A program made the position numbers and the translations under genes. Below, one piece after another: positions 40,806 through 44,716 of a stretch of 64,000 nucleotides of DNA; the stretch's first letter is position 1; every line of letters starts with the position of its first letter. The notes beneath the pieces are model-generated. The model was not told the DNA's origin. It ran no database searches and saw only the letters and a program-made list of their open reading frames with translations. Origin of the DNA: an uncultured Anaerolineae bacterium (GTDB lineage: Bacteria; Chloroflexota; Anaerolineae; Anaerolineales; Villigracilaceae); assembly GCA_937120535.1 (NCBI GenBank), contig CAKZJX010000011.1, positions 1-64,000 on the forward strand. The letters are read 5' to 3'.

Positions 40806-41348
40806 ATGAAAGTGTTGTTGTTGAAAGATGTGTATAAGCTGGGTCGTGCCGGCGAGGTGAAAAAAGTCGCCGACGGCTACGGCCGTAATTTTCTGATCCC
40901 TCAAGGGTTGGCCGTCTTGGCGACCCCCGACGCTCTAAAGCAGGCTGAGCGCATTCGCCAGCAGGCCGAGATCCGCCGCACTGCTTTGAACCAAGAGCTG
41001 CAAGGGTTGGCGGAGCAGATCAACGGCATGGAGTTGACCTTTATGGTCAAGGCCGGCGAGACCGGCAAGCTATATGGCTCGGTTTCGGCTCATGACGTAG
41101 CCGAAGCCATTACCCAGAAGGTGCGCTTCGAGATCAAGCGCCAGCAGGTGGATATGCAACCTATTCGCGAGCTTGGCCAATACACTGTTCCGGTGCGGCT
41201 AACGATGGACCTGGTGCCCGAGGTCAAAGTGATTGTGCGCCGCGAGGGCGAGGAAGAAGAGAGAGCACGCCAAGAGAAAGGCAAACCGACAGCTAGGAAA
41301 GCCCGCCCTAAGGCGGCTGCCGAAGCTGCTCCGGCCACTTCCGAATGA
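40806..41348 (+). CDS. rplI: 50S ribosomal protein L9
   Basis: A 180-residue L9. [18 protein letters not shown] then [20 protein letters not shown] is the N-terminal signature, followed by the long connecting helix and the C-terminal domain ([12 protein letters not shown]). About 30 extra residues at the C terminus are Lys/Ala/Arg-rich, a common extension. It has its own promoter and stands alone rather than next to rpsF/rpsR. Confidence 0.96.
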
Positions 41349-41422: not shown

Positions 41423-41466
41423 TTTGACCTGTGACTGTTCCTTCTGCAGGTCAAACGTGGTACACT
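41423..41466 (+). promoter_or_regulatory. Inverted repeat and -10 box before the RodZ-like gene
   Basis: TTTGACCTG (41423-41431) and CAGGTCAAA (41447-41455) form a perfect 9-bp inverted repeat with 15 bases between. It lies just upstream of TACACT (41461-41466), which ends seven bases before ATG 41474. The repeat covers the -35 position, so it may be an operator; it could also be the terminator hairpin of rplI, though no T-run follows. Confidence 0.5.
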
Positions 41467-41473
41467 TTTTCGC

Positions 41474-42094
41474 ATGCAATCTCCTCCTGAAACCATTGGT
41501 CAGCGGCTCAAGCGCCTGCGCCTGGAGCGGAAGCTGACCCTCGAGCAAGTCTTCGAGGCGACCCGCATTCGCCCGCACTACCTGGAAGCGCTTGAGAACG
41601 ATGACTTTTCGGTGATGTCGTCTGCTGCTCAGGGGCGCGGTTTCCTCCGTCTGTACGCCGAATTCCTGGGTTTGGATCTGGAAGCGGCGCGACGGGAACT
41701 TGAGCAGGCCGCGACGGCTTCCTCGCCCCTTTCGGAAACTCCGCCTGAGGCTGGTCCGACCTCTCCAGCCCTCCCCGCTTCGGCACCTGAACCTGAAGCC
41801 GGCTTGCCCGAACCCCAGGCCGAACGCCGTCCCTTCTGGACTCGCCCCTTCCGTCGCACGGCGGCCACCTCGGCCCGAGAGACGCCGGCCGCCCCGCCGC
41901 AGGAGCAGACGCCAACAGCCCCTCAGGCGCTAGAAGACCTGACTGGAGAAGCCCTGCCGGCCGAAGACCGGCGGCCTGCTGCAGACACGCCGGCCCAGGA
42001 GCGGCTTGAGACTTTGCCCGGGGCCGACGAGCAAACATCGTTGCGCCAGGGCAAACCGGCGGCTGTGCCAAGCGGTAAAAAAAAAGCTCCCTAG
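41474..42094 (+). CDS. RodZ-like HTH protein, first half (zero-frame product)
   Basis: A 206-residue frame with an N-terminal HTH_25 domain (about residues 7-75; IGQRLKRLRLERKLTLEQV, then YLEALENDDFSVM and GFLRLYAEFLGLDL), as in RodZ. A Pro/Ala/Glu-rich linker runs to AVPSGKKKAP and a TAG at 42092. The run of nine A bases at 42077-42085 lies in the final codons. A one-base backward slip there continues in frame into the next ORF, giving a 602-residue protein. As read, this half has no membrane segment and would be a soluble DNA-binding product. Confidence 0.8.
   Translation: MQSPPETIGQRLKRLRLERKLTLEQVFEATRIRPHYLEALENDDFSVMSSAAQGRGFLRLYAEFLGLDLEAARRELEQAATASSPLSETPPEAGPTSPALPASAPEPEAGLPEPQAERRPFWTRPFRRTAATSARETPAAPPQEQTPTAPQALEDLTGEALPAEDRRPAADTPAQERLETLPGADEQTSLRQGKPAAVPSGKKKAP
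42077..42085 (+). other. A9 run, candidate slippage site
   Basis: Nine consecutive A bases in a GC-rich Pro/Ala linker, placed exactly where the two halves of the RodZ-like gene must join. With a -1 slip the frame reads SLEPEAEARAPTLSEPATP and stays open to 43281. Confidence 0.6.
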
Positions 42095-42171
42095 AGCCTG
42101 AGGCCGAGGCCAGGGCGCCGACCCTTTCTGAGCCGGCAACTCCAATCAGTTCAGAGCAGTCGTCATCTGGG

Positions 42172-43281
42172 GTGGGGCCGGCAGCAGACGTTGGGGGGCT
42201 GGACGGCTTTTTGGGGCCGGATACGCGCTGGGGAAGGGGCGAGGCGCCGGCAGAATCGCCCAGGAGGGAGCACGATGCCGGGCAGGGAGGATCGGCCCGG
42301 GCAGCGGTTCAATCACATCCCCTTTCTTCACAAGCCCTGTTTGCCCAGATCGGAGTACAGTTGCGTCAACGCCGAGAGATGCTCAATCTCCGGCATGAGG
42401 AGATCGAGCGTCATCTCCGTATTCGCGCCCATTACCTGCAAGCGCTGGAGGATGGGGATTTGGAGCGGCTTCCTTCGCCAGTCCAGACGCGCGGCTTGTT
42501 GGCCTTGTATGCTTCGTTTCTGGATCTGGACTTGGAGGCGCTGCTGTTGCAGTTTGCCGAGGCGTTGCAGGCCCGTCATCGGGAACGACATCCACTGCCT
42601 CCTGGCGCGCGCGGCATTCCCTCAATGGAGGCGCCGCCTCGCGTTCCGCCCCTGACTCGTTTGCTGGCTGCCGACCTGCTAGTTATCGGGGTGTTCCTGG
42701 GGCTCATGGCGTTTGTGCTGTGGAGCGTGAACCGCATGCTTGGCCAGCTGGCCCAGGCAGTCGCTACAATTCCCCCAATCGAGGAGGTGTTGGAGGTGGA
42801 GCCCGGTCCCACGAGCACGCCGACCGCCGCCCTGGTTGGGGAGATCGTGCTGACGACGCCAACTCTGGAGGAGACGCCGCTGATCTTGCCCACGCCGCAG
42901 GCCGGCGTGACAGTGCAGATCAATCTGATCGCCCTGGAGCGAACCTTTTTGCGGGTGATTGCGGATGGCAAGGTGGCGTTTGAAGGGCGTGTGGCGCCTG
43001 GCTCAGCTTATCCCTTCGAGGCAACGTCGCAGATCGAGGTGGTGGCCGGCAATGGTGCCGCCTTGCGGGTGTATTATAATCAACGCGATCTGGGGCTGTT
43101 GGGCGGGATGGGAGAGGCAGTATTGCGCATCTTTCGGGCGGAAGGGATCGTCACCGCTACACCCACAGCCAGCCCGACGCCGACCATCACGGCGACGCCC
43201 ACCATCACATCCACACCCACTCGCACCACAACCCCCACGCGCACCCCTACTCCCACGCGCACACCCACGCCGACGCGCTGA
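42172..43281 (+). CDS. RodZ-like protein, second half (HTH, membrane helix, DUF4115)
   Basis: The frame is open from the A9 run at 42085; the first usable start codon is GTG 42172, with only weak ribosome-site support. A second HTH_25 domain (about residues 62-130; IGVQLRQRREMLNLRHEEIERHL, then HYLQALEDGDLERL) closely resembles the one in the first half. A membrane helix follows (LLVIGVFLGLMAFVLWSV), then a DUF4115-like extracellular domain (NLIALERTFLRVIADGKVAFEGRVAPG) and a Thr/Pro repeat tail. RodZ anchors the MreB cytoskeleton. Most likely this is the C-terminal part of one protein starting at 41474. Confidence 0.78.
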   Translation: MGPAADVGGLDGFLGPDTRWGRGEAPAESPRREHDAGQGGSARAAVQSHPLSSQALFAQIGVQLRQRREMLNLRHEEIERHLRIRAHYLQALEDGDLERLPSPVQTRGLLALYASFLDLDLEALLLQFAEALQARHRERHPLPPGARGIPSMEAPPRVPPLTRLLAADLLVIGVFLGLMAFVLWSVNRMLGQLAQAVATIPPIEEVLEVEPGPTSTPTAALVGEIVLTTPTLEETPLILPTPQAGVTVQINLIALERTFLRVIADGKVAFEGRVAPGSAYPFEATSQIEVVAGNGAALRVYYNQRDLGLLGGMGEAVLRIFRAEGIVTATPTASPTPTITATPTITSTPTRTTTPTRTPTPTRTPTPTR

Positions 43282-43312
43282 GCGGCGTTGATGGCTTTTC
43301 GTGGATCGGAAT

Positions 43313-44716
43313 ATGCCAAGGAACACCTTTTATCTGGTTTCGCTCGGTTGTGCTAAGAATACAGTGGATTCGGACTCGATGGCCCAGTTGCTGGAGCGCG
43401 AGGGCTTTTCGGCGGTGGAGGATCCTCGCAAAGCCGAGGTGTTGATCGTAAATACCTGCGGTTTCATCGGGCCGGCCCGCGAGGAATCGCTGAACATGCT
43501 ACGTCATTTGGCCAAGATCAAGCGCAAGCACCAGTTGCTGATCGCGGCCGGCTGCCTGACCCAGCGCTATGGGGCCCACGTGGCTCGTCAGGCGCCCGGC
43601 CTGGATGGCATCCTAGGCACGCGTCGCTGGATGGACATTGTACAGGTAGTGCGCCAGTTGCGCCAAAGCGCCCATCCCCAGCCCTTGTATCACCTGCCGG
43701 AGGCGCAAACAGTGGGCACCGACGAGGCCGGCGTGCTGCGCGCCCATCGGTTCGGCGCTTCGGCCTATCTCAAGATCGCTGACGGTTGTCGCCGGCCCTG
43801 TGCGTTTTGTGCCATTCCGCTCATCAAGGGGAGGGCGGTCAGCCGCCCGTTGGAGACCTTGCTCGACGAGGCGCGGCGCCTGCGAGATCGAGGGGTGCGC
43901 GAGTTGATCCTGATCGCCCAGGATACCACCGATTACGGCCACGATCTCGGCATGAAGGACGGCTTGGCCATCCTGTTGGAGCGGTTGACCCAAACTGTGC
44001 CCGACATGGAGTGGATCCGCATTTTGTATGCATATCCGGGCTACGTGACCGATCGGCTGATTGATGTGATGACGTCTTCGAAGCAGATCGTCCCGTATCT
44101 GGATATGCCATTACAACATGCGCATCCAGACGTGTTGCGACGCATGCGGCGGCCGGCCAACCTGGACTGGGTGTATCGCACTCTGGAGAAACTACGCTCG
44201 CGCCTGCCTGGCATCGCCCTGCGCACCACTTTCATCGTGGGGTATCCGGGTGAAACCGAGCAGGAGTTCCGTACCCTGGAGGAGTTCGTCCGCACCGTGC
44301 GCTTCGATCGGGTAGGGGTATTCCGCTTCTCGTTTGAGCCTGGAACGGCCTCCGCACCCTTGGGAGACCCGATCCCACCGGAGGTCAAGGAAGAGCGTTA
44401 CCGGCGCTTGATGGAGCTGCAGCAGGGCATTTCGCTGGAGATCAATCAGTCGTTTGTCGGGGAGACGCTGGAAGTGCTGATCGAGGGGCATTCCCAAGGG
44501 GTATCGGTGGGGCGCTCGTATCGCGATGCACCGGAGATCGACGGCTACGTGCTGGTGCAAGGGGAAGTGGAGGTGGGGGAAATGATCCCAGTGCGCATCG
44601 AGGGCGCTATGGCCTATGATTTGGCCGGCATCCCAGCCTGGGGTCAGGTGCCGATTACGAGGCACTTCGTGCCAGGGCCGTCGCTCCCAGGATCAGGATC
44701 GAGAGCACCAAGCTGA
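43313..44716 (+). CDS. rimO: Ribosomal protein S12 methylthiotransferase
   Basis: Radical SAM enzyme that methylthiolates an aspartate of ribosomal protein S12. The N-terminal UPF0004 domain starts FYLVSLGCAKNTVDSD and carries three cysteines (LGCAKN, VNTCGF, AGCLTQ). The radical SAM motif is DGCRRPCAFCAIP (CxxxCxxC), and a TRAM domain lies at the C terminus. ATG 43313 is preferred; GTG 43301 is in frame four codons upstream. The last 62 bases overlap the 3' end of the convergent membrane-protein gene, so the C-terminal tail (HFVPGPSLPGSGSRAPS) is probably not conserved. Confidence 0.93.
   Translation: MPRNTFYLVSLGCAKNTVDSDSMAQLLEREGFSAVEDPRKAEVLIVNTCGFIGPAREESLNMLRHLAKIKRKHQLLIAAGCLTQRYGAHVARQAPGLDGILGTRRWMDIVQVVRQLRQSAHPQPLYHLPEAQTVGTDEAGVLRAHRFGASAYLKIADGCRRPCAFCAIPLIKGRAVSRPLETLLDEARRLRDRGVRELILIAQDTTDYGHDLGMKDGLAILLERLTQTVPDMEWIRILYAYPGYVTDRLIDVMTSSKQIVPYLDMPLQHAHPDVLRRMRRPANLDWVYRTLEKLRSRLPGIALRTTFIVGYPGETEQEFRTLEEFVRTVRFDRVGVFRFSFEPGTASAPLGDPIPPEVKEERYRRLMELQQGISLEINQSFVGETLEVLIEGHSQGVSVGRSYRDAPEIDGYVLVQGEVEVGEMIPVRIEGAMAYDLAGIPAWGQVPITRHFVPGPSLPGSGSRAPS

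Follow-up and report, generated by a model that had tools for sequence, protein, structure and literature searches.

Does a RodZ-like gene that is broken at nine consecutive adenines into two open reading frames reflect a sequencing or assembly error, a pair of separate genes, or one gene that yields two products through a programmed change of frame? The gene lies in a 64,000-nt stretch of DNA (hereafter the window) from a genome of 140 contigs (98% complete, 3.11 Mb), and its features are listed in Table 1. As the original prediction had stated, the first ORF, of 206 codons, stops just past the A9 run, and the -1 frame is free of stops from the run into the second ORF, giving a joined protein of 602 residues. 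Read in the zero frame, the junction is GGT AAA AAA AAA GCT CCC TAG, which terminates ORF1; ORF2 is in the -1 frame relative to ORF1. Immediately ahead of the run, a TAA formed by a T and the run's first two A's stops the -1 frame, which can therefore be entered only inside the run. A -1 translational shift is equivalent to gaining one A (A10) or losing two (A7), and an A8 variant runs into an early stop after KKKLPRA. The earlier expectation that A8 or A11 would restore one continuous frame was therefore wrong.

The predicted domains were recovered by Pfam, with E values of 1e-19 and 2e-17 for the HTH_25 domains of ORF1 and ORF2, respectively, and 2e-9 for DUF4115 (RodZ_C, PF13464); the membrane helix of the joined protein is a hydrophobic stretch seen by eye. 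The gene has the domain order of RodZ, with an N-terminal HTH_25 and a C-terminal RodZ_C, its HTH domains give weak PDB matches to RodZ-type structures (Thermotoga 2wus_R, 3fym and 4gqm), and each of the eight genomes of the window's genus encodes MreB homologues. The long form is plausibly a RodZ. It resembles the canonical HTH_25-TM-RodZ_C protein in its HTH_25, putative membrane helix and RodZ_C, and in occurring in a genome with MreB homologues, but differs in having two HTH_25 domains and a long low-complexity linker, both also found in continuous relatives, and in the frame break within that linker.

The A9 is the only run of at least eight A's or T's in the window, where composition predicts 1.5 runs of A8 or longer, and it is one of ten A9-or-longer sites in the 3.11-Mb genome. 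A lone run of this kind is ordinary by composition; what exceeds chance is its location at a frame break and its conservation.

Table 1. Features of the split rodZ-like locus, in window coordinates
Feature	Position	Strand	Remark
rplI-like gene	40806-41348	+	upstream neighbour of the split rodZ-like gene
Inverted repeat TTTGACCTG/CAGGTCAAA	41423..41455	+	between rplI and the rodZ-like gene
TACACT, possible -10 element	41461..41466	+	7 bases 5' of ATG; putative leaderless-like start
Split rodZ-like gene, both ORFs	41474-43281	+	
ORF1, short product, 206 aa	41474..42094	+	HTH_25 and low-complexity linker
First HTH_25	41504..41683	+	Pfam PF13413, residues 11-70 of ORF1 product
TAA in -1 frame	42076..42078	+	immediately 5' of run (T and first two A's of run)
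A9, candidate slippage site	42077..42085	+	A9/A10 at same place in 13/13 split g1 and g4 orthologues with assembled junction
ORF2, -1 frame	42079..43281	+	second part of 602-aa joined product
Zero-frame TAG	42092..42094	+	stop of short product
GTG	42172..42174	+	earliest -1-frame start codon past run; no SD by eye
Second HTH_25	42358..42540	+	Pfam PF13413, residues 93-153 of ORF2 product P0002
Membrane helix (LLAADLLVIGVFLGLMAFVLWSV)	42661..42729	+	hydrophobic stretch, read by eye
RodZ_C (DUF4115)	42931..43128	+	Pfam PF13464, residues 284-349 of P0002
rimO-like gene	43301-44716	+	3' neighbour of the split rodZ-like gene

Relatives from two genera share the split; most of the sequences compared are metagenome-assembled. 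The downstream part of the gene has matches in 142 of 150 genomes of family f1, and we checked the frame domain by domain at 107 loci: 7 from the window's genus (g1, eight genomes), 6 from a second genus of the same family (g4) and 94 others. Both gene pieces are present in every g1 genome. All seven assembled g1 junctions are split in the -1 frame, at A9 in six and at A10 in G005; the eighth genome, G006, has A9 and a contig that ends right after it. The six g4 loci are all split at A9 or A10, again in the -1 frame. Comparison with related genomes, proposed originally as a check, thus returned the same split in every g1 and g4 relative with an assembled junction, with a run of A9 or A10 and never fewer than nine (13/13). 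Outside these genera, 92 of 94 orthologues are continuous. Among the continuous ones, only G020 (genus g14) has an A9 in the linker (L138, 1430-1438), and it is in frame; slippage there would have the opposite effect to that proposed for the window's gene, making the product shorter.

The two remaining loci are split without an A9. One, in G024 (genus g18; L151, 1296-1302), has a -1 break near an A7 together with long KPAAKK repeats, and two congeners are continuous. The other, from CFX11 (L165/L076, G131/G156), lies on a 3.1-Mb contig and has two frame breaks and no A-run, which are probably indel errors of that assembly. We considered these breaks as examples of the same device and rejected them, because they are sporadic and the congeners checked are continuous.

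A comparable arrangement occurs elsewhere in the window's genome. In chlD, an A9 (G000:C42:10387-10395, minus strand; L173, also L271-L278) interrupts the gene at a -1 frame break: the AAA ORF ends with GAA AAA AAA ACT TAA, the VWA ORF then continues in the -1 frame, and the first start codon of the VWA ORF is 124 codons past the run. Run and split are identical in layout in all eight g1 genomes, and programmed frameshifting of chlD has been published, Anaerolineaceae included (PMC9227772). Given this genus-wide split and the published frameshifting, g1 appears to make working use of -1 transitions at A9. The two genes share genome and genus, the A9, the -1 direction and a short and a long product; chlD differs in encoding a Mg-chelatase-type enzyme and in its reported mechanism, which is ribosomal with downstream structure (PMC9227772). 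Separately, one of two dnaK copies (L166; G000:C1:2749-2758, plus strand) is broken at an A10 in the -1 sense, into 208 and 452 aa; its congeners are intact, with the run interrupted by G's. Either the break is an error or slippage keeps this copy alive.

Substitution patterns around the junction bear on whether the joined product is made. In G010 and G070 (both g4), the -1 frame has no ATG, GTG or TTG between the run and the second HTH_25; in the other genomes of the tested pairs, the first start lies 49-103 codons past the run. Over the g4 overlap, three pairs gave omega values of 0.47, 0.30 and 0.46 for the -1 frame and 0.83, 1.62 and 0.68 for the zero-frame tail, and the closest g1 pair gave 0.56 for the -1 frame ahead of its first start, a modest constraint. 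These values mark the -1 frame as coding directly after the run in the g4 overlap. Since it evolves as coding sequence in stretches that lack a start codon, the joined protein is probably made. The zero-frame tail, which in g1 has 2-12 residues, is not conserved and so lends no support to a function of the short product. Its basic, histone-like appearance, striking in g4, was rejected as a sign of function given omega values of 0.68-1.62; the acidic linker of continuous relatives, read in the +1 frame, yields tails of similar length that are mostly basic too, so the basic look is a by-product of shifting the frame of an acidic linker by one base. The count of AAA codons inside the run was dropped as evidence because it is circular.

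Three explanations dispense with a programmed change of frame. If ORF2 were a separate gene with its own internal start, left by a true gene fission, the GTG 30 codons past the run in the window could serve as that start, although the favoured model does not require it. Fission is nevertheless very improbable: two g4 genomes offer no start codon before the second HTH_25 and the other tested genomes none until 49-103 codons past the run, selection constrains the -1 frame across the g4 overlap, and the junction always falls at A9 or A10. Long homopolymers mutate fast, and one added A suffices for joining, so replication slippage might toggle the gene on and off within a population; such switching should, however, leave some junctions in frame, and all 13 assembled species junctions are out of frame, which makes phase variation slightly less credible still. 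An indel from sequencing or assembly, or a decaying pseudogene, has precedents in the CFX11 rodZ, split without an A-run and broken a second time downstream, and in the G000 dnaK copy broken at A10 beside intact congeners. Against it, the layout is shared by 14 genomes of two genera, including the four-contig assembly G007, and both parts of the gene are under purifying selection; we give this explanation next to no weight. The single-base indel offered as the alternative in the original prediction is accordingly set aside as a general account, on the strength of conservation in two genera, but not for the A count in this one metagenome-assembled genome. A programmed frame transition, by whichever mechanism, is thus very likely.

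Which step shifts the frame is a closer question. The same two products could be made in translation by programmed -1 ribosomal frameshifting on A_AAA_AAA (g1) or A_AAA_AAG (g4). These heptamers are in the correct phase, chlD frameshifting was published as a ribosomal event that involves slippery sites and structures downstream (PMC9227772), and the direction is -1 in all cases, a constancy that the GeneTack authors take as a ribosomal sign (PMC3711429). Shifts in both directions, the GeneTack criterion, are not seen at the split g1 and g4 junctions, but this criterion is soft (PMC3711429) and is not demanded of dnaX-type cases. The runs themselves are always of 9-10 A's where 6-7 would suffice for the heptamers, and AAG makes up about 41% of Lys codons in the rest of these genes, so that a shorter run would be easily reached by silent change. 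At nine A's or T's, slippage by bacterial RNA polymerase is efficient, and the enzyme adds A's at Thermus dnaX (PMC5009743). In cell-free translation with E. coli components, ribosomes slid only on 11 or more A's (PMC4363877). A search of the 13 junctions for a downstream hairpin or an SD stimulator gave no consistent signal: SD-like matches were poor, and downstream folding z-scores, computed without pseudoknots, were scattered near zero, with G063 alone strong. Because the run is never shorter than nine when ribosomal heptamers need just 6-7 A's, and because the stimulators are not consistent, transcriptional slippage is the likelier of the two, and ribosomal frameshifting is on balance unlikely.

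We infer that the joined protein arises by slippage at the run. RNA polymerase would slip on the A9; mRNAs with nine (or 9+3n) A's would yield a soluble 206-aa protein of HTH_25 and linker, and mRNAs with A10 (also A7) would yield the membrane form, a RodZ-like protein of 602 aa in which two HTH_25 domains are followed by a membrane helix and RodZ_C. The short form would be retained for a purpose, for example to set how much RodZ-type HTH is soluble and how much is bound to the membrane beside MreB. Taken as a whole, a conserved functional transition through transcriptional slippage at A9, with the soluble short form kept for a purpose, is a reasonably probable account. Of the original proposal that a soluble 206-residue protein and a membrane protein come from one gene, the programmed transition between short and long products is strongly supported by its conservation in two genera; the transcriptional step is likely only.

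The split probably arose twice. On a tree of the HTH2-RodZ_C part, g1 and g4 fall in separate groups, and g4 (100/98) groups with the continuous genera g9, g14, g17, g2, g7, g5 and g8 (94/93). The split label changes five times on this tree, two of these being the stray cases, and the well-supported branches alone force two changes; the deep branches have weak support. The two genera differ in run phase as well: the run starts at a codon boundary in g1 (mostly NNT AAA AAA AAA) and reads GTA AAA AAA AA(G/A) in g4. Separate clades and two run phases point to independent gains in g1 and g4; a single origin with many losses is possible and less simple.

A single frame could be regained by altering the run by one base, yet none of the 13 species has done so, and the two-product state is therefore probably favoured; that the out-of-frame state is held in two genera despite so simple a fix suggests the same. 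Where rodZ is annotated as split in these genomes, it should not be labelled a pseudogene. The short form carries the first HTH_25 without a membrane anchor, and any role we assign to it is inferential. Tentatively, and with rather less confidence than in the slippage account, we propose that slippage may fix the ratio of soluble HTH to membrane RodZ, that the soluble form may be dedicated to regulating either MreB/RodZ assembly or transcription, and that two-product rodZ may have been gained independently in two genera through an A9 in the inter-HTH linker.

To our knowledge, few cellular genes rely on slippage for their long product, and our literature search found no report of such a product in the rod-shape (MreB/RodZ) machinery. 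The precedent invoked in the original prediction, A9 slippage yielding two products from Thermus thermophilus dnaX, agrees with the literature (PMC1088944, PMC5009743). That gene shares with the rodZ-like gene a coding-strand A9, two products per gene and proposed heterogeneous mRNAs (PMC1088944, PMC5009743). It is a different gene from a different phylum, and its long product is zero-frame and shortened by slippage, whereas the zero frame of the rodZ-like gene is short and slippage is needed for the long form. In Shigella mxiE and the chlorobial two-ORF dnaX, slippage at a homopolymer joins two ORFs and is required for the long product (PMC1088944; PMC3711429), but mxiE uses a T/U run and neither is RodZ. 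Searches for RodZ with slippage or programmed frameshifting gave no relevant report and no recoded rodZ; RodZ is absent from the GeneTack paper (PMC3711429) and from the accessible portion of the Atkins review.

Two further observations concern the ends of the gene. In the region ahead of it (41423-41473 in the window), an inverted repeat is present in most orthologues, its arms varying by species with pairing retained; it probably serves rplI as a terminator hairpin, and we rejected an autoregulatory operator on the same pattern. Just downstream, a -10-like TA(A/C)ACT lies about 7-8 bases ahead of the ATG in g1, and TGGTA(A/C)ACT is found at the same distance from the ATG in six of the seven g1 genomes with the start available, which suggests that the rodZ-like gene may have its own promoter and a leaderless mRNA in this genus. 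At the other end, the DNA of the C-terminal Thr-Pro repeat tail of ORF2 (43140-43278) resembles tails that several further loci of this genome encode, at about 73-74% identity.
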